This document shows, one piece after another, positions 3,449 to 14,657 of a DNA stretch of 64,000 bases (positions are counted from its first letter, which is position 1; each line of letters begins with the position of its first letter). This stretch comes from Alicyclobacillus herbarius DSM 13609 (GTDB lineage Bacteria > Bacillota > Bacilli > Alicyclobacillales > Alicyclobacillaceae). The translations under genes and the position numbers were made by a program. The notes below the pieces were generated by a model. The model had not been told where the DNA came from. It did not search any database and saw nothing but the letters and a program-made list of their open reading frames with translations. The DNA is taken from NCBI RefSeq assembly GCF_000430585.1, contig NZ_AUMH01000016.1, forward strand, positions 1-64,000, in the 5' to 3' direction.

Positions 3449-5281
3449 TCACGGTCTTCGCGGTGGTTCTGTCGGGCGTTTACTGGGCAGGGTCAGCACA
3501 CTCATGGTTCGAACGGACAAGGTCTTGTTCGGCATCGGAATACCCAGGCTGGTGAGGATTTTCTTCACACTGTCGCTCGCTTTCGTCACGCTGAGAAACT
3601 CCTTGTCCATGGCGTGCACCGCCTGCCATCGCCTCAGTTCACGTACAATGGCTTCTCCGGTGTACCAGCGCTTATCCAACTCCGTCAACGCCTTGGCTCG
3701 CTCCTGGTCATTCTCGATTTTCTCCGCGTCGTTCTTGTCTTGCTCCCATTGGCGACGGTACAGCACTTGCATCTCTTGCTCGAACAGATAGGCCAGCACG
3801 CAGACAAAGATGTGCCCTCTGACCCTCTGCTCGTTCCAGGGATACACAGATCCCACATCGAGGAAGTTCTTGATTTGGTCAAACGCCCGTTCAATCCCCA
3901 TCAGCGTCTTGTACGACAACACCACGTCCCCTGCGGACAAGTCGGTGTTCGTCCGAATCAGGAACTTCCCGTCCCGCAGTGCCTCCTTGGCAACGGCTTC
4001 TTCATCCCATTGGTATGTCAATACCCTGTCCCTGTAGTCGACCTGAAAGAACGCCTGAACCCCCTTCTTTGTCAGCAGTTCCGCCACCTTGAGCATGACA
4101 CCTTTGTCGGTCGGTTTTCGGCCGCGCCTTGGTTTCGTCAACCCTTCTGCCAAGGCCATTAGACCGGTCTCGGCCTCCGCGATAGCACTCTCTCGAAATG
4201 CGGCATCGTGGGCCGCCTTCTCGGGATTGTAGCAGAGGATGTACCGTACGCCGGCCGTCTTTTCATCGTCGTCCACACTCTCCGCTGGCACCTCGAGATA
4301 GCGCAGGTTGTCCTTGAGTTCGCTGTATGTATCGACATCTGCAAACTGCTCCAGCAACGCGTCGCTCACGATTCGGCCACGCTTGTGAAACCCGACGATG
4401 TACGGAAATCCAGCCTCCGCCATCAAGGCCATGTTCTTTTCCGTGACCATCCCGCGGTCACCGACGAACACACACTGCTCGACCGCGAATTGCTCCTTGA
4501 GGCGCTTCAAGATGTCGGGCACGGTCTGCTTGTCCGAGACGCTGCCCGCGAACACCTCGTGGGTGATCGGGATACCCTCCGGTGTCACCAGCAGCCCGAG
4601 CTCGACTTGCTCGAGATCCGGGCGATGAGTGCGCGAGTACCCATGCTCGTCTAAGGGGCAGGCGTGCCCGTGTAGGTGCGTGCTGGTCAGGTCATACGGC
4701 ACCAAAGACAGCTTGAAGTTGAGCAAGTCCGTCAGCCGACTGTACAACGCCCGCTCCAGCTGCGGTTTGATCTCCACGAGGTGATCCAGCGCCCGATAGA
4801 AGTGCTGAAGCTGCCACGGTTCCGACCCGGCGTCCGGAAGATACAGGTCATCCAGCGTTCGAAACAGACGGAGTTTACTGGAGGGGTCCACCAATCGATG
4901 AACCACCATGGCCTGCACGTACCGGGCCACGTCGAAGGTGATATCCCGGTCTTTCAATGCATCACGGATGGCCTCTGTCAGTCCGAGCTGGTTCCACAGA
5001 AATTGAACCACGTAGGGAACACCAAACTGGAGGACCTGCTGGGCCTCGAAGTCTTCGAGCGAACCCGTAGTGCGGTGTTGTAGGAGAGACTCGAGCGTCC
5101 GGATAATCTGCTCAATCTCCCGCTCTGAGTACTGACTAATGTTACCGAGACTAGCGACACGGCGTTTTTTGACGGTCCCGCCCTCGCGAGAGGACTCGAC
5201 GATGTGGAGATATTTGTAGGTTTTACCGTCCGGTTTCTTTGTGGATACAATTTGAGCGAACACGGAGCTCACCACCGCCAA
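3449..5281 (-). CDS. IS1634-family transposase
   Basis: The 610-residue DDE transposase mobilises the surrounding element. Family features are the N-terminal YKYLHIVES region, VARYVQAMVVHRLVDP, the DLTSTH strand that carries the first catalytic Asp, the VFVGDRGMVTEKN block with the second, and the C-terminal IERAFDQIKNFLDV plus VRGHIFVCVLAYL block that contains the late Glu region. Length is close to the 500-600 residues usual for the family. The start is uncertain: TTG at 5281 has no clear ribosome site, and in-frame GTG codons shortly downstream are alternatives. The frame is intact, with no internal stop. Confidence 0.85.
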   Translation of the reverse strand: MAVVSSVFAQIVSTKKPDGKTYKYLHIVESSREGGTVKKRRVASLGNISQYSEREIEQIIRTLESLLQHRTTGSLEDFEAQQVLQFGVPYVVQFLWNQLGLTEAIRDALKDRDITFDVARYVQAMVVHRLVDPSSKLRLFRTLDDLYLPDAGSEPWQLQHFYRALDHLVEIKPQLERALYSRLTDLLNFKLSLVPYDLTSTHLHGHACPLDEHGYSRTHRPDLEQVELGLLVTPEGIPITHEVFAGSVSDKQTVPDILKRLKEQFAVEQCVFVGDRGMVTEKNMALMAEAGFPYIVGFHKRGRIVSDALLEQFADVDTYSELKDNLRYLEVPAESVDDDEKTAGVRYILCYNPEKAAHDAAFRESAIAEAETGLMALAEGLTKPRRGRKPTDKGVMLKVAELLTKKGVQAFFQVDYRDRVLTYQWDEEAVAKEALRDGKFLIRTNTDLSAGDVVLSYKTLMGIERAFDQIKNFLDVGSVYPWNEQRVRGHIFVCVLAYLFEQEMQVLYRRQWEQDKNDAEKIENDQERAKALTELDKRWYTGEAIVRELRRWQAVHAMDKEFLSVTKASDSVKKILTSLGIPMPNKTLSVRTMSVLTLPSKRPTEPPRRP

Positions 5282-5383
5282 TATTTATAACCACAATTAT
5301 GCCAAATAACTCCTTTCATATTAATGAAAAATGATCCTTTAGTTTGACCTACATTTTTGATGCAAAAGTACCACCAAACAACG

Positions 5384-5406
5384 AAAAAACCGCGCCGTAG
5401 CGCGGT
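5384..5406 (-). terminator. Rho-independent terminator inside IS right end
   Basis: On the minus strand ACCGCGC-TACG-GCGCGGT is followed by a T-run (5389-5384). It lies between the right inverted repeat and the transposase start, placed to stop outside transcription entering the transposase gene, a common insulating device in insertion sequences. Confidence 0.75.
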
Positions 5407-5430
5407 GTTGGCCTCTGGATCAAGGGGTGT

Positions 5431-5446
5431 TACTGTCAAACTTGAG
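5431..5446. repeat. Right terminal inverted repeat of the IS1634-type element
   Basis: TACTGTCAAACTTGAG is the exact reverse complement of the left repeat at 3342-3357. Confidence 0.8.
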
Positions 5447-5612
5447 ATTAACCAGCACCACTCAGCCATCGATGGCAAAGCCCTGGTGACTCGGTCAGGA
5501 TATTTATTCCATATTCACACACCACCCCAACTTCCTCCCGCACTCACGCTTCATCCATGATACTCCTCCACATACTCAGGCCCGTCATTCTGCACATTTC
5601 TCACCAGATGAT

Positions 5613-6116
5613 TCACTTGGAAATATAGGTCTGTAGATCATGAACGAAAGTTGCTGCATCCGTTTCAGAAGGAAAAACGCGCTTAGGAATGACGAACAAG
5701 TTTCTAGCGTTCTTGAACCTTAGAAATATATATTTATCCGTGTCTTTGCAGCTTTTAGCGTACTTCCAGTCAATCTTAGCGTTTAGGCCTGCCCCGTTTA
5801 CTCCAAAACCATCTGGGCCAATAGTAATCACCATAGGTTCTTGTCCTGAACTTTCCTTGTGAGTGCGATTATACATGAGGTTTAATCGACAATAGAGAAG
5901 AATGGGTACCAAGATAACAAAGAGTAAAGACATATACAGGAGATGAGTCATAGAGCAAATTATCAAAACGAGAATAAAGCCAGCGAGTATAATCGCCCCA
6001 TGCCGATTTCGGGTCGTTTGAATAAACGACAGTTTAATATACTCCGGTTTCGTCAGTGAACAATTTGTCAGGAAATAAGTACCTTCTCTTTTTTTCATCA
6101 AGATTCTCCCACTCAT
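5613..6116 (-). CDS. YcxB-like two-helix membrane protein
   Basis: The 167-residue protein has a short soluble start, two adjacent membrane segments at about residues 39-59 and 61-77 (GAIILAGFILVLIICS; LYMSLLFVILVPILLY), then a soluble domain with ITIGPDGFGVNG, IDWKYAKSC, YIFLRF and VIPKRVFP. This layout is that of the YcxB family, whose function is unknown. The gene is visibly richer in A+T than its surroundings and lies between an intact IS and two half-tRNA scars, so it was probably acquired horizontally. No partner gene is seen. Confidence 0.65.
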   Translation of the reverse strand: MSGRILMKKREGTYFLTNCSLTKPEYIKLSFIQTTRNRHGAIILAGFILVLIICSMTHLLYMSLLFVILVPILLYCRLNLMYNRTHKESSGQEPMVITIGPDGFGVNGAGLNAKIDWKYAKSCKDTDKYIFLRFKNARNLFVIPKRVFPSETDAATFVHDLQTYISK

Positions 6117-6326
6117 TGTTTTGTTTTATTTTATAAGATACTCTTATTTAACGACGATTGAAATCGTTCCATTGTGATTCGTGATCTCGCACGACGCGGA
6201 CGAGGGTGCGGCGATAAAATGTTTCGAGGAACGGAGGTTAGCAATTCGTTTGCAAATACGGTTCTGGATTGCGGAGGGTATGGAAAAGCGGCTCCCCGGG
6301 GGAGTCGGGAAGCCACACCACGACTA

Positions 6327-6381
6327 GCGGAGAGGGTGGGATTCGAACCCACGGTGAGCTTGCGCCTACAGCGGTTTTGAG
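6327..6381 (-). pseudogene. 3' half of tRNA-Leu(CAA), probable attachment-site scar
   Basis: On the minus strand the sequence starts in the anticodon loop (CTCAAAACCG, anticodon CAA), continues through a long class II variable arm (GTAGGCGCAAGCTCAC), a perfect T-arm (GTGGG-TTCGAAT-CCCAC) and the acceptor strand TCTCCGC. The 5' half, with the D-arm, is absent upstream. Integrases of phages and islands often recombine within this tRNA 3' half, leaving such a copy. It is not a functional tRNA. Confidence 0.75.
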
Positions 6382-6581
6382 GTTCCCAACGTATCATTTT
6401 TATTGAATAAATGAGCACATGAATTAGCACATGGGCGCTTGTGTGCGGTTTGTGTGCGAACTCAGCCGAAATGCGTGTCAGTGGATGTAAATACGGTTCA
6501 GAACAGAGGGCCTAAAATGCCTGTCATGGCGCGGAAAATGACACTCAGAGGAACTGCCCGGTATTCGGTGTAAAATGCCTC

Positions 6582-6634
6582 CGGCCTGCCTTACAAGCAG
6601 GGGGTCAGCGGTTCGAGCCCGTTACCGCCCACCA
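6582..6634 (+). pseudogene. 3' half of tRNA-Val(UAC) with CCA, probable attachment-site scar
   Basis: The anticodon stem-loop (GCCTGCCTTACAAGCAGG, anticodon UAC), variable loop, T-arm (AGCGG-TTCGAGC-CCGTT) and acceptor strand ACCGCCC followed by ACCA are present. No D-arm or matching 5' acceptor strand precedes it. Lying 200 bp from a tRNA-Leu half in the opposite orientation, it is best read as the duplicated end left by an integrative element. Confidence 0.75.
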
Positions 6635-6868
6635 TGAAGAAACCCCGCATATACAACGAAAATCGGATGGAAAGCTGTTATTGGCTTCTATCCAATTCGT
6701 GTTTCAGTCTAATTTTCCGTGATGATCTATCTATTCACGCGAACCCTTCGAATGAATCGATGCTACTTCAAGCTTGAGCTGATCTGTTTTTTAGGAGAAT
6801 CAAAGCACAGATCCGTAACTGATGGCCTTTAGAGCCCTCAGCGGATGGATACCCGTAAGCACGCCCCC

Positions 6869-7021
6869 AGGTCCAGGACAAACGTACAGACAACCCCGAA
6901 CCCAGGAAAGCTGCTGCTCGATGCCACATGCGCGCTGGCGGACATCTCCTGTCTGACCGACTTGTCGCTTCTAAATGAGGCCCGTGACCAAACGGCCTTG
7001 TTCATCGTTTGTGTGCATTAG
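6869..7021 (+). pseudogene. IS5-type transposase, internal fragment
   Basis: About 50 residues translate as NVQTTPNPGKLLLDATCA, ADISCLTDLSLLNEARD, then a stop. This is the block around the first catalytic Asp (LLLDAT) of the same IS5-type transposase family whose C-terminal half is found at 2773-3310. No ends or other domains are recognisable. Confidence 0.65.
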
Positions 7022-7032
7022 GTCTCCAATCC

Positions 7033-8058
7033 TTATGTAAAGTACTCGATTTTGGCTTCCGGGAAGTGTCGGTCGAGCAGTTCGCGAAATAGGTCTTTGA
7101 TCTCCTGTTGCTGCTCATCGGTGTAAACGTACTTTCCGATGCCGTAGCGGCCCCACTTGTATTTGCGCTTATTTTCATCCAAATCAAGTTTTGTCTTGGG
7201 ATAGCGCTGTTCTATAACTCGCTTAGCAGGTTTGGTAAACCGGTGCTGAATCAATTCGAACGTTAGGTCACGGCGGGTCTCCGGCGGCATCGCCTCGGCC
7301 AGGTTCTGAACGAGTTTTTTGTAGTCAGACTTCCAGTCGTCGTAAAGATAGATTGGAGCAATGATAAAACCAAGTGGGTAGCCGGCGAAGGCGGCCTTGC
7401 GAGCGGCGGAAATCCGCTCATGCAGCCGGGCGGTCGACGGTTCAAAATAACGGATCACATACTCTGTGTTGACCGAGAAACGGATGCGCGTGTGGTCATT
7501 GTGCTGTAGCAGAAGCAAGGAATCAATCTGGTCGTACTTCGTTACGAAACGAAGGCGTCCGTACTCTTGTGTAGCCATAAACTCAATCAGTTCCTTAAGT
7601 GATCCCGTGAGGTGTTCGAGGCTCAGTGGATCGCTCGTGCAGGCAGCCTCAAAGCGGGTGATTTCGGGCGCACGTTGGTCGATGTAGCGTTTCGCCTGTG
7701 CTAGGATGTCCGGCAGGTTAACGTACACTCGGATGTAAGGCCTGGTGCCGAGCGTCGTCTGGAGATAACAGTAATGGCAATGACCAATACATCCGGTCGC
7801 GATGGGAATGGCATACTCCGCAGACGGTTTAGAGCTATCGAATTTGAGTGTTTTACGCAGGCCAACCACTAGGGTTCGTTTCGCATTTCGGTACTTCTGT
7901 AATGGATTATTCCCTGGCAGCCCGGTTACCCGGTTGTGCGAGGTGGTCGTCAAAATTTCAACTCCAAGAGCGCGTAGCTTTGCGTAAAGCTTACGTCCCA
8001 GCGGGTAATCTAATGCTTCGGGTTCAAAGTAGGCTCGGTCGGGGATAAACGGCTCCAT
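7033..8058 (-). CDS. splB: Spore photoproduct lyase
   Basis: SplB is a radical-SAM enzyme that repairs the UV-induced spore photoproduct back to two thymines during germination. The 341-residue length matches Bacillus SplB. The [4Fe-4S] motif is C90-x3-C94-x2-C97 in ATGCIGHCHYCYL, and Cys140 in FEAACTSDP corresponds to the catalytic H-atom-donating Cys. ATG 8058 is chosen over an in-frame ATG at 8064, because AGGAGG (8070-8065) abuts the earlier one and stands 6 nt from the later one. The gene stands alone; forespore-specific expression is expected from family knowledge, though I did not identify the promoter. Confidence 0.93.
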   Translation of the reverse strand: MEPFIPDRAYFEPEALDYPLGRKLYAKLRALGVEILTTTSHNRVTGLPGNNPLQKYRNAKRTLVVGLRKTLKFDSSKPSAEYAIPIATGCIGHCHYCYLQTTLGTRPYIRVYVNLPDILAQAKRYIDQRAPEITRFEAACTSDPLSLEHLTGSLKELIEFMATQEYGRLRFVTKYDQIDSLLLLQHNDHTRIRFSVNTEYVIRYFEPSTARLHERISAARKAAFAGYPLGFIIAPIYLYDDWKSDYKKLVQNLAEAMPPETRRDLTFELIQHRFTKPAKRVIEQRYPKTKLDLDENKRKYKWGRYGIGKYVYTDEQQQEIKDLFRELLDRHFPEAKIEYFT

Positions 8059-8216
8059 GCTCATCCTCCTGGTGTTGACGAGTGTCTCGGACCTAGCTTG
8101 GTCCGTCGGATATGACGTATGCATAATGCGCCACGCCGGAATCATCCATTTTGTGTAAGTCTATACATGGGGAAGGCATTATAAGGGGATGATGAACTGC
8201 GGAACTGATTGGAGGA

Positions 8217-8393
8217 ATGAAAGTGGGAGCGAGGGACTCGGTTCATGTCATTGATTCCCTTTGTCCATTGTGTGGTGGGAATTTGTGGAAAGATGAACTC
8301 ACCCGGGAAGTTTGGTGTTCAAGTATGAAGTGTCGGTACGGCGTAGAAGAGGAAATACTGTACGAAGAAGGAGAATTGTCAGCAACCCCGTAG
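8217..8393 (+). CDS. Zinc-ribbon microprotein (58 aa)
   Basis: ATG 8217 follows GGAGGA directly, and the frame encodes 58 residues with two cysteine pairs, CPLC near residue 16 and CSSMKC near residue 34, spaced like a small treble-clef or rubredoxin-like zinc ribbon. The tail is acidic (GVEEEILYEEGE). There is no membrane segment or signal. I recognise no named family; nucleic-acid or protein binding would be the usual role for such a knuckle. It lies between divergent splB and the NlpC-fold gene. Confidence 0.6.
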   Translation: MKVGARDSVHVIDSLCPLCGGNLWKDELTREVWCSSMKCRYGVEEEILYEEGELSATP

Positions 8394-8643
8394 CTGAATC
8401 AAGGGGTTGCATCGCGCATGGCTGGTTGACCGCAACCCTCCTGGGAGACCAGCAGCGAAGTTGAAGAGCACTAGATAAATGGTAGTCACAAATGTCTCAA
8501 ACCCAGGCGCTCGCAATCCGTGCTAAGATAGAAGAGGTAAGAGTCCGGCGTTTTCATCCACAGGCCATCGAAACGAGCGGGTTACGACAAGGCCGGCCTG
8601 CTGTCGATGGCCACACATGCCTTGCCTGGAGGGATGAGCGGGC

Positions 8644-10592: not shown

Positions 10593-12167
10593 ATGTTTGA
10601 GACGAATCAGGAGAAGAAGGTTGGTCAACAGCTGCGACAGTGGGATATTGATAAACAGCATGTACCGCCCATTTCACGCAACCTCCAGGAGAATGTAGAG
10701 TACCTCAACCGTCTGCTTGGCATCGGATATGGTCCGGGAAACGCGTGGGATCTGATGGCCAAGCCGTTTCGCTACGGCGGTTTGAACATGATGGCATACG
10801 TTCTAAACGGATTTTTCACCACCACCAACCTGGTTCTGATTCTGGACAATTTTGAGCGGCAAATCAGTGAATTTGTGACCCGAAAGCAAGGTCAGGACTT
10901 CAGTATTCAAGAACTCGCGGAGTTTCTTAACACGCATATTGGCTTCGTCCAGGTTCAGCCGTTTGCGGACATGGGGGAGCTCATCCGTCAAATTCTCTCC
11001 GGACCCATGGTCATTTTTATCGATGGATTTGATGTAGCGCTGCTCATCGATACCCGTATCTACCCGATGCGTAGTATTGGGGAGAGTGAGATTGAACGCA
11101 CCGTGCGCGGCCCGCGAGACGGCTTCGTAGAGACGATGCTGTTTAATGTCGCATTGGTTCGCCGCCGGTTAAAGGACCCTCGCATTCGAACGGAACTCAT
11201 CCAGGTGGGAAACCGCTCGAAAACCGATGTCACGATTATGTACTTACAAGACGTCACGAACCCTGAACTGGTCGACAACGTCCGCAGATCCCTCACTTCC
11301 ATCGACGTAGATGCGATTACGATGGCCGAACAGGCGATCACCGACCACATGATGCGTGTCAAATGGAACCCGTATCCCGTTGTTCGTTACACGGAGCGAG
11401 CTGATGTGGCCGCGACAGCACTCGTTGACGGTCATGTGTTAATCATTCCCGACACCACACCTGAGGTCATTATTGCGCCGGTGACATTCTTTCAGTTGCT
11501 GCAAAACCCAGGTGAGTATCATTCGTATCCGCTTGTCGGTACGTACATGCGATGGGTCGTTTTACTCTCCGTCATCGTGAGCACCATCCTGCCGGGGCTG
11601 TTCCTGATGGTGAATCTTCATCCCCAAGTGGTGCCAAAAGAGTTTTCATTCTTTCGTGCGGACACCACATACCCATTACCCGTTTGGGCGCAGTTGTTGG
11701 TTGCAGAGATTGGGCTCGATATTTTACGCATGGCAGTTGTCAACATCCCGAGCGTCCTGGCGGGATCGGTCAGTATTGTCGCTGCCGTCATCTTTGGCCA
11801 GTTTGCCAGTAAGATTCAGCTCTTCCAACCCGAAGTGCTGGTCTATATGGCTTTCGTGATGATTGCTCAGTTTGCGATTACGTCGTTTGAATTGGCGAAT
11901 GCGAACGCGCTGACGCGCCTGTTTCTGATTTTGACTACGGAAGCAGGATTCGCCGTCGGCATCCGCGGCTGGGGGTTTATCCTTGGTCTTGCGGCGTGGG
12001 TATTGTTATTAGCGACCACACGTTCTCTCGGGGTACCTTATTTATGGCCATTGATTCCATTCCGTTGGAAAAATGGCATGCAGGATGTGCTGCTGCGAAA
12101 ACCGATGTCCACCATTCGTGGACGACCTCCGATTCTCTTCACCCGCACGGCCAAACGGAAAGGCTGA
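10593..12167 (+). CDS. GerA-family spore protein, SpoVAF-like
   Basis: The 524-residue inner-membrane protein belongs to the GerA/SpoVAF family that takes part in spore germination and dipicolinate channel function. The soluble N-terminal region (about 1-300) contains [16 protein letters not shown] and the characteristic [20 protein letters not shown] block; about five membrane helices follow between residues 310 and 480. The cytoplasmic tail is basic. ATG 10593 follows GTGAGGAGGCAG. No spoVA or gerB/gerC genes lie beside it, so it is a standalone copy; SpoVAF versus GerA-A subunit cannot be settled from sequence alone, but the short N-terminus fits SpoVAF. Confidence 0.85.
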
Positions 12168-12282: not shown

Positions 12283-13272
12283 ATGTGCGTGCGACGAACA
12301 CCTCCCAATCCTCAGGTCCGAGAACAATCCCAAGAGATCTTACAGCGTTACCGTGACGGTCAGATTGCGCTGGCAGAGGCGTTACAGTGGTTGGCGGGTC
12401 CAGCAGAAACGAAATCAGATGCGGAAAGTCCGCCTTTGACGCGTTCCGCGTTGTTGAGTCAACTCGCGGAACTCGACACGTTGGTCGGTCTCGAACAAGT
12501 CAAGGCGACGGTGCGGGAAATTTTTGCGTTGTTCTATATGCAGCAGCGGCGTCGTGAATTTCATCTGCAGACGGAACCGGTGGTTTTGCACATGGTGTTT
12601 AAAGGCAATCCAGGTACGGGTAAGACCACGGTAGCTCGTTTGCTGGCAAAGATATTTCACCAATGCGGACTGCTTAGCAAAGGACATCTGGTCGAGGTTG
12701 AGCGCGCAGATTTGGTCGGAGAGTATATCGGGCATACGGCACAAAAGACGCGTGAACAAGTGAAAAAGGCCTTAGGCGGGATTTTATTCATCGATGAGGC
12801 TTATTCACTGGCTCGCGGCGGTGAAAAGGATTTTGGACGAGAGGCTATCGATTGCCTCGTCAAGAGCATGGAGGATTACCGGAATCAATTTATCGTCATT
12901 ATCGCTGGGTACGAACGGGAAATGGACTGGTTTCTGTCCACCAATCCGGGCCTTCCCAGCCGTTTTCCCATTCATCTGGTGTTTCCCGATTACGATGTCA
13001 GGGCACTTATGAACATCGCCCGCAAGATGGCCAGTGAACGGCAATATCAACTGAGTCGGGAAGCCGAACAAAAGCTGCGCGAGCATCTGAAAGAGGTGCT
13101 CTCCGTTCACGATCCGTATGGCCGTTTTAGCAACGCGCGGTTCGTTCGCAACACCATTGAGCGTGCCATACGCCGACACGCTGTTCGGTTGTTTGATGAA
13201 ACACGTTTGAATCGAGAGACTGCCATGACGTTGGAGGCTCGTGATTTTGTCTGGGAGGGGGAAGTCTTTTGA
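12283..13272 (+). CDS. spoVK: SpoVK/CbbX-type AAA+ ATPase
   Basis: The 329-residue hexameric-type AAA+ protein is required late in Bacillus sporulation. Walker A is GNPGTGKT (residues 108-115), Walker B is [12 protein letters not shown], and [23 protein letters not shown] covers sensor 1 and the Arg-finger region, all typical of the CbbX/SpoVK group. The frame opens earlier, inside the gerA-type gene; ATG 12283 in GAGGTGATG is the simplest start, but its ribosome site is close, and TTG 12268 is possible. Its stop overlaps the next start. Position ahead of ynbB-glnR-glnA matches Bacillus. Confidence 0.88.
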
Positions 13273-13856
13273 GGTGCGTTCTTGTAATTGGGCGCAGCAA
13301 CGTTGGGAAAACGCTATTCTGTATCCACTTCGCCGAGTATCTCGGCCTCTCCAAGCTCATCTGGAAAATTCAGCAGCCTTCCGGTCAACTCGAAAACAAG
13401 CGGCTGACCGTACCGCAAGCGGAAACCACATTGACCGACGCCTCTCCGCACTTTACACGCTGTTTGCAATCGGTGGAGATCGACGTGCCGAAAAGGAAAG
13501 TGGATTGCCGACTGATGCTTACCGACTCGACCGGACTCACCGATGGAATTCATTCCGATACGGGGTTACGTTATGCCATGGCTCAGACGCTCGAAGCACT
13601 ATTACAGGCCGATGTGATTTTGCATATGGTGGACGCGGCCCAGTCGGCCTGGGAACCGTTGGATGAGCAGATATACCTCTATGGCCGTACATGCGACGCT
13701 TATCTTGTATTGGCAAATAAGATTGATTTGCCGGCAGCCAAGCGGGGGTATCGTCAACTCACGCGCCGTCTCTCGTCAACCCGAATACTCCCGATTTCGG
13801 CTCTCTACGGAAACGGATTTCGGGAGGTAAAGCAATATGTCTGGCGGATGGCTTGA
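13269..13856 (+). CDS. Small GTPase of the SpoVK cassette
   Basis: The 195-residue P-loop GTPase has G1 GRSNVGKT (residues 8-15), G3 DSTG (86-89), G4 NKID (150-153) and G5 near SAL (177-179). The start is TTG 13269, whose last two bases form part of the spoVK stop (TTGA), so translation is coupled. In Bacillus the gene between spoVK and ynbB encodes the larger GTPase HflX; this protein is half that size and lacks HflX's N-terminal domain, so it is not simply hflX. It overlaps the next gene by 20 bp. Role unknown; a molecular switch acting with the neighbouring AAA+ and membrane proteins is an inference. Confidence 0.75.
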
Positions 13857-14457
13857 TTATGTACGAGTGTTCGCTTGTTTGTTGCTCATGGCTGGCGCCA
13901 TTAAAGTGATGGATGATTACCTGGACAGAGATTTCGACCTGACTTGCGGGAAACGTACCCTGGCTGCGCGTCTGGAACGATCCGCGCTACCCTATGGGCT
14001 GGTGCTTGCGCTGGTCGCGACGTTTCTTGATTTGCGTGTTGCCCTGGCCGTTTTTTTTGGCAGCTACGCGGTTGGGATGTTTGCGAATTGGAAGGAAAAG
14101 ATGCCGACCCACCTACCTGCATACGTAGAAATTGTCGCTTCGATAATATTGGCTTGCCTGTTTAGCGGGTGGCAAACTGCACTCTGGGGAATTGCGATGA
14201 TGGCGGCCATCGATTGGCTTGATGATCTCTTAGACCAGGCTGTCGACCGACGGAGTGGGCAGAGAAACTTAGCATCTAAAATGGGTACGATTGAGACTTT
14301 GCTCTTGGTGCTTGCGGCGCTTGGGGTGGCCGTGTTGGTCAACGCCTCGTTGACCGTCCTGGCATTCTTAGCCCTTCCCATGATTATCGTGCTCGACGAA
14401 TTGACCACACAGCGCCTATGGAAGACATCGGAGGAAGACGGGGTGAATGTTCCGTGA
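13837..14457 (+). CDS. Duplicated Asp-motif membrane protein (UbiA-like?)
   Basis: The 206-residue protein has about six hydrophobic segments and two near-identical acidic motifs 103 residues apart: D26-D-Y-L-D30-x3-D34-x3-G-x-R-x-LA and D129-D-L-L-D133-x3-D137-x3-G-x-R-x-LA. DDxxDxxxD is the Mg-diphosphate site pattern of UbiA-type prenyltransferases, which carry two such Asp motifs, but those proteins are about 280-300 residues. This may be a minimal UbiA-like fold built from a duplicated half, or an unrelated protein with convergent motifs. ATG 13837 follows GGGAGGT inside the GTPase gene, and the stop overlaps the next start (TGATG). Confidence 0.6.
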   Translation: MSGGWLDYVRVFACLLLMAGAIKVMDDYLDRDFDLTCGKRTLAARLERSALPYGLVLALVATFLDLRVALAVFFGSYAVGMFANWKEKMPTHLPAYVEIVASIILACLFSGWQTALWGIAMMAAIDWLDDLLDQAVDRRSGQRNLASKMGTIETLLLVLAALGVAVLVNASLTVLAFLALPMIIVLDELTTQRLWKTSEEDGVNVP

Positions 14458-14657
14458 TGGGGTCCGTTGGGTGGCTCGTGATTGTGGCCGTCCTTTGGAC
14501 GTGTCTTGTCTTTGCTGTGGCACGGCGCATCGGGACGGCTGAAGGAAGACAAGAGGCCAAGGCCGAAATTCCCATTCAATTGCGGGTCTGTGCATTGAGA
14601 GAGGGCCGCTGTCCGGTCTGCGACAAAACCTATGATACAATCGCGCAAGAGGAATGA
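14457..14657 (+). CDS. Single-helix membrane protein with C-terminal zinc knuckle
   Basis: ATG 14457 overlaps the preceding stop as TGATG. The 66-residue product has one membrane segment (about residues 5-22) with no signal-peptide cleavage pattern, then a charged stretch and a CPVCDKTYD end that, with an upstream Cys, could bind zinc. It is the fourth tightly linked gene after spoVK. No family recognised. Its size and coupling suggest an accessory subunit of the membrane protein at 13837-14457; this is inference. Confidence 0.6.
   Translation: MGSVGWLVIVAVLWTCLVFAVARRIGTAEGRQEAKAEIPIQLRVCALREGRCPVCDKTYDTIAQEE

Follow-up and report, generated by a model that had tools for sequence, protein, structure and literature searches.

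Is spoVK the first gene of a larger sporulation operon in this bacterium, and what could its small neighbours contribute? The window (the whole stretch of 64,000 nucleotides analysed here) carries three small overlapping genes behind spoVK, here named the trio; the second of them encodes a membrane protein, here named mini-UbiA. The features of the locus are the following:

12283..13272, + strand: spoVK-family AAA+ ATPase, 329 aa, ATG start, match to NCBIfam TIGR02881
12334..12393, + strand: SHOCT-like N-terminal module of SpoVK, a 20-residue stretch whose pattern is linked to trio presence
13269..13856, + strand: small GTPase, 195 aa, TTG start, MMR_HSR1 match at E 2.5e-9
13837..13856, + strand: overlap of the GTPase and membrane protein genes, 20 nt, identical in length in 97/100 loci (as counted below)
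13837..14457, + strand: mini-UbiA, 206-aa membrane protein with seven helices, internally duplicated, ATG start
13912..13938, + strand: Asp motif 1, DDYLDRDFD, mini-UbiA residues 26-34; D26, D27 and D30 invariant (n = 39)
14212..14247, + strand: Asp motif 2, DWLDDLLDQAVD, mini-UbiA residues 126-137; D129 and D133 invariant (n = 39)
14457..14657, + strand: 66-aa single-helix membrane protein with CPxC, ATG start, found across related loci
14610..14621, + strand: CPVC pair, residues 52-55 of the 66-aa protein, its sole two invariant cysteines

Organization of the spoVK locus

The initial annotation had described a four-gene cassette with overlaps of 1-20 nt and a GTPase starting at TTG over the spoVK stop codon. 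Both points were confirmed: the TTG start overlaps the spoVK stop by 4 nt, the GTPase and mini-UbiA genes share 20 nt, and the mini-UbiA and 66-aa genes share 1 nt. Downstream of the 66-aa gene are a ynbB-like gene, glnR and glnA. In most relatives hflX is located directly after the trio and before ynbB, while no HflX match above the family cut-off was found anywhere in the genome of the window. A gene for a GerA-type germination protein (10593-12167) lies directly 5' of spoVK, as it does in many, not all, of the related loci.

All four genes kept the same order in the 30 examined loci of the Alicyclobacillaceae (30/30), and the overlap between the GTPase and mini-UbiA genes measured exactly 20 nt in 97 of 100 loci, a set spanning Bacilli as well as Clostridia-like genomes. 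Start codons were ATG, GTG or TTG, and the one nearest 20 nt was picked by rule, so that the figure of 97 states that a start codon exists there. Such conservation indicates that the four-gene arrangement is not due to chance. The junction between the mini-UbiA and 66-aa genes is less strict, with 4 or 1 nt as the commonest overlap.

Detailed reading of individual loci showed some departures. In two loci of family f87 (L126 and L127) the reading frame of the GTPase is disrupted at a poly-A run of unequal length in the two, and it is intact in L131; sequencing error, decay and slippage cannot be told apart here. In L177 and L178 (family f89), two genes resembling a two-component regulator and a sensor kinase are located between the GTPase and mini-UbiA genes, which are adjacent in close relatives.

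The encoded proteins

The SpoVK protein of the window scored 412.4 bits against TIGR02881, under the curated cut-off of 422.95, and no other strong SpoVK match was found in its genome. Only 45 of the 272 Bacillota genomes with a strong SpoVK match pass this cut-off, suggesting that it suits Bacillus-type proteins. The N-terminal sequence of the window protein differs from that of the MurG-binding B. subtilis type and includes the SHOCT-like module.

In several Alicyclobacillus genomes spoVK is interrupted. Its halves were found at 429-995 and 8371-8772 in L262 (genome G034), and at 721-1275 and 15554-15964 in L263 (G036), and half-matches were also present in G009, G023, G025, G031, G033 and G035. 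The split falls at about the same codon, with an insert of 7-14 kb in the two genomes read and distances of 7-35 kb in the others, and a large serine recombinase gene adjoins the downstream half. Both inserts read carry metabolic rather than phage-like cargo, a fructose-type PTS in one genome and cytochrome oxidase genes in the other. These inserts look like skin-type intervening elements targeting spoVK, a target not mentioned in the papers that we found on such elements. Another split, in L180 from a distant lineage (G405, family f90; 4537-8435), lies within the Walker A region of spoVK; the insert of about 3 kb carries genes for a serine recombinase and a radical-SAM/SPASM protein, and TAGAGG(C/T)AATCCTG is common to both junctions.

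The GTPase has complete G1-G5 motifs, which are invariant or nearly so across the family. Its structural model (pLDDT 92) has Era as the nearest solved structure (Foldseek E 1e-10) and has, between G1 and G2, additional strands plus a helix; the best sequence family is EngA (E 1e-10). A shortened HflX was considered and dropped, since HflX is separately encoded beside the trio in most relatives and EngA and Era match better.

Mini-UbiA was named for its relationship to the UbiA family. The window protein scored 26.7 bits against Pfam UbiA, below the cut-off of 34.2, and 33 of 39 family members matched at E < 0.01, the best at 1e-11. An hhalign comparison with a mixed UbiA-family set gave a probability of 0.4%, put down to a poor alignment (dominated by CtaB, with some rows in the wrong frame); when the set was sorted by family and MenA was added, the profile of 20 mostly MenA sequences gave a colinear match to residues 8-192 at 93% probability (E 3e-7). 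The duplicated Asp motif noticed at first reading is real, as the two halves of the protein match each other with 97% probability (E 1e-11). Across 39 diverse sequences D26, D27, D30, D129 and D133 do not vary, and D130 and D137 hardly do; the stretch after motif 1 was lost in several clades, and part of motif 1 is unconserved outside Bacilli. By the positive-inside rule, we read both motifs as probably facing the cytosol. The model (pLDDT 91.9) consists of seven long helices, and in structure searches the leading hits were isoprenyl-diphosphate synthases and homologues of UbiA, at weak scores (Foldseek E 0.2-1, Z about 6-8). The isoprenyl-diphosphate synthases were rejected as its family: they are soluble enzymes that matched only at the DDxxD helix (E 0.07-1.3), with short profile overlap.

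The relationship to UbiA and MenA supports the earlier suggestion of a possible prenyl- or diphosphate-binding membrane protein. From motif and family likeness, a prenyl diphosphate is slightly favoured as the ligand, and a cortex lipid precursor in particular is proposed tentatively. A short, duplicated protein of this type is also a lead on the origin of UbiA-type prenyl-diphosphate-binding membrane proteins.

The 66-aa protein combines a hydrophobic segment with a single CPxC pair and a basic stretch that is conserved, and matches no Pfam or NCBIfam family above cut-off. A zinc knuckle needs four metal ligands, as in CCHC. The zinc knuckle first assigned to this protein was thus not upheld, given that Cys52 and Cys55 alone are invariant among its cysteines, half of what a knuckle requires.

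Distribution of the trio and of the SpoVK N-terminal module

A first genome scan with a single-protein query detected no relatives, and an alignment query detected 39 loci in Alicyclobacillus, Tumebacillus, Alkaliphilus transvaalensis and Bacillota MAGs, almost always with the same gene order. The window genome is close to Alicyclobacillus kakegawensis and A. shizuokensis, with mini-UbiA identities of 73-75%. Within the Alicyclobacillaceae, mini-UbiA was found in 35 of 37 genomes, with the trio after spoVK in every evaluable one; in G007 and G014, which had no mini-UbiA match, spoVK lies at a contig end, and these were left out of the loss count. The trio was also present in many Clostridia-like genomes.

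The initial annotation had asked whether the small genes occur independently of spoVK. In an evenly drawn sample of 398 Bacillota genomes, with presence lists matched by hand and a mini-UbiA threshold of 42 bits or more, mini-UbiA was detected in 92 genomes, the GTPase in 98 and SpoVK in 272. Mini-UbiA was never found without the GTPase (92/92). SpoVK was present in 91 of the 92 mini-UbiA genomes and in 97 of the 98 GTPase genomes (hypergeometric P 4e-18, with related genomes as non-independent rows), and thus independent occurrence was not what we observed. The sole GTPase genome without SpoVK, G511, has its trio near a contig start. A functional link between the trio and SpoVK is therefore very likely. 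The trio is missing from 174 of the 272 SpoVK genomes, indicating that SpoVK is able to work alone.

Where both positions could be read by hand, the gap between the SpoVK core and mini-UbiA was 588-804 bp in 41 of 47 genomes, which is the space for one GTPase gene. The remaining six, from a few families, had the trio some 6-16 kb from spoVK or on a separate contig, and its genes stayed together, beside hflX-ynbB, in the loci read. Six genomes (families f88, f90 and f134) had the GTPase with no mini-UbiA detected, and different genes followed the GTPase in those read. In the sister family f2, SpoVK was found in 16 of 18 genomes and a mini-UbiA match in none. In the SpoVK tree, trio-free lineages, including Bacillaceae-like ones, are nested among trio-bearing lineages; many branches are weak and the root was not inferred. 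Several losses of the trio would fit this tree better than a single late gain.

SpoVK proteins of trio genomes contain, upstream of the AAA+ core, a short module of the form GxI(S/T/A)xxxALxxL. The Pfam SHOCT-like family matched it in one homologue only (E 8.6e-6, below cut-off), and HMM scoring across clades was weak (AUC 0.76-0.78), so the pattern was used instead. It was found in 48 of 49 trio genomes, 3 of 3 GTPase-only genomes and 4 of 59 trio-free genomes, all of these being data on which it was built; shuffled sequences match it at about 0.5%. The pattern was then frozen, together with the prediction, before 20 trio and 20 trio-free new genomes were tested, and matched 16 of 17 readable trio genomes and 1 of 19 readable trio-free genomes (P 6e-8). 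The genomes compared are related to one another, and just one independent contrast falls on strongly supported branches. Four of the new genomes were unreadable by the script; of the three with the trio, one later matched and two had near-variants by eye, and the one without the trio had no match. About half of the f2 genomes that were read still had the module, intact or in degraded form. Such leftovers are as expected after trio loss; retention of the module without the trio was also counted against the explanation preferred below.

A possible role in spore envelope building

MurG uses a substrate linked to undecaprenyl diphosphate. In the mother cell of Bacillus subtilis, SpoVK is located on the surface of the forespore; it is needed for the cortex, and the lipid II synthase MurG is recruited by the SpoVK N-terminus (Delerue et al. 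2023, PMC10659427). The text of that paper is silent on the trio, and the legend of its figure 3A names operons and a zinc-binding gene, so the operon may be drawn there. No description of the trio was found in the searched literature naming SpoVK, in agreement with the initial view of the cassette as undescribed.

The trio probably works with SpoVK in building the spore envelope; a sporulation role in trio species rests on the role of SpoVK in B. subtilis. The best matches to a Sigma-E promoter upstream of spoVK were no better than those in shuffled sequences. Our preferred explanation, with a probability of about 0.38, is that the four genes form an old Bacillota sporulation operon for a mother-cell membrane module that was lost in Bacillus. 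Mini-UbiA would bind a magnesium-prenyl-diphosphate group at the cytosolic membrane face, most likely that of a cortex precursor linked to undecaprenyl diphosphate (lipid I/II or its carrier). The GTPase may act as its translationally coupled switch, with the CPxC protein as a small membrane subunit, and the SHOCT-like module would recruit SpoVK to this platform. SpoVK could then remodel the platform, or MurG bound there, to turn on the supply of lipid II at the outer forespore membrane. Bacillus would have lost both trio and module, its SpoVK engaging MurG through a different N-terminus. Weighing against this explanation are the many SpoVK genomes that do without the trio, the trios located apart from spoVK, the weak structure-search scores for the UbiA fold and the part of motif 1 that varies outside Bacilli. 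A platform at the step of MurG is suggested by the prenyl-diphosphate-type Asp motifs, the fidelity of the trio to SpoVK and its covariation with the client-recruiting region of SpoVK. We infer the physical complex, its ligand, the membrane and the direction of control from these patterns, and the specific picture of a complex ancestral to Bacillota spore-formers and lost in Bacillus, in which module-docked SpoVK sits on a GTPase-gated, internally symmetric mini-UbiA that senses or hands over the precursor, is only tentative.

Mini-UbiA could instead be a true prenyltransferase for a spore-specific prenylated compound, with SpoVK and the GTPase as its activase, like CbbX for Rubisco. The invariance of both Asp motifs of a prenyl-diphosphate site, MenA as the nearest family and the existence of dedicated activators within the AAA+ clade of SpoVK all agree with this, but it is unlikely given seven helices where nine are usual, the loss in several clades of the conserved stretch behind motif 1, the canonical UbiA-family enzymes also encoded in the genome, and a trio that travels without biosynthetic partner genes.

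The covariation of the SpoVK module with the trio would also suit an anchor or sensor that positions SpoVK on the forespore and detects the lipid precursor, as a replacement for the SpoVID of B. subtilis, a protein that both localises SpoVK there and restrains it. The Alicyclobacillaceae were reported to be without SpoVID (PMC3533761), and no trio genome of the class sample passed the curated SpoVID cut-off, yet only 28 of 299 genomes passed it overall. This role overlaps with the preferred explanation and as a separate one is distinctly unlikely. A task of the trio outside sporulation, such as membrane lipid or quinone housekeeping, with mere sharing of the operon, would account for trios that remain beside hflX-ynbB when apart from spoVK, in a neighbourhood where ynbB, lexA and hfq are conserved too. 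It is very unlikely in view of the enrichment of SpoVK in GTPase genomes (97/98, compared with 272/398 overall, P 4e-18), even with the genes apart, and of the SpoVK N-terminus that covaries with the trio.

The function of SpoVK was reported recently and in B. subtilis only, a species without the trio and with a different N-terminus. If the trio takes part in the same process, as the preferred explanation of a lost membrane module proposes, the model organism hides half of the system and shows a simplified version, and the control of a lipid-linked cortex precursor at the forespore surface would be testable in trio species.

Compared with B. subtilis SpoVK, the window protein belongs to the same AAA+ family, is encoded at the same place before (hflX-)ynbB-glnRA and is likewise the only strong SpoVK match in its genome. 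However, the three partner genes are absent at that place in B. subtilis, and the N-terminus there is of another type (KNNGQINIILNGQ), whereas the window SpoVK has the SHOCT-like module. The AAA+ clade of SpoVK also includes CbbX and EccA (NCBIfam E 1e-82 and 4e-69 for the window protein), but the window SpoVK is far below their cut-offs, and their N-termini and partners differ. The GTPase shares the complete G1-G5 motifs of Era/EngA/MnmE-type GTPases, as a single 195-aa domain without the KH domain of Era or the second G domain of EngA. With the UbiA superfamily and MenA, mini-UbiA shares two Asp-rich motifs and a colinear profile match; it differs from them in its two matching halves and in having 206 aa and seven long helices rather than the about 300 aa and nine helices of the superfamily.
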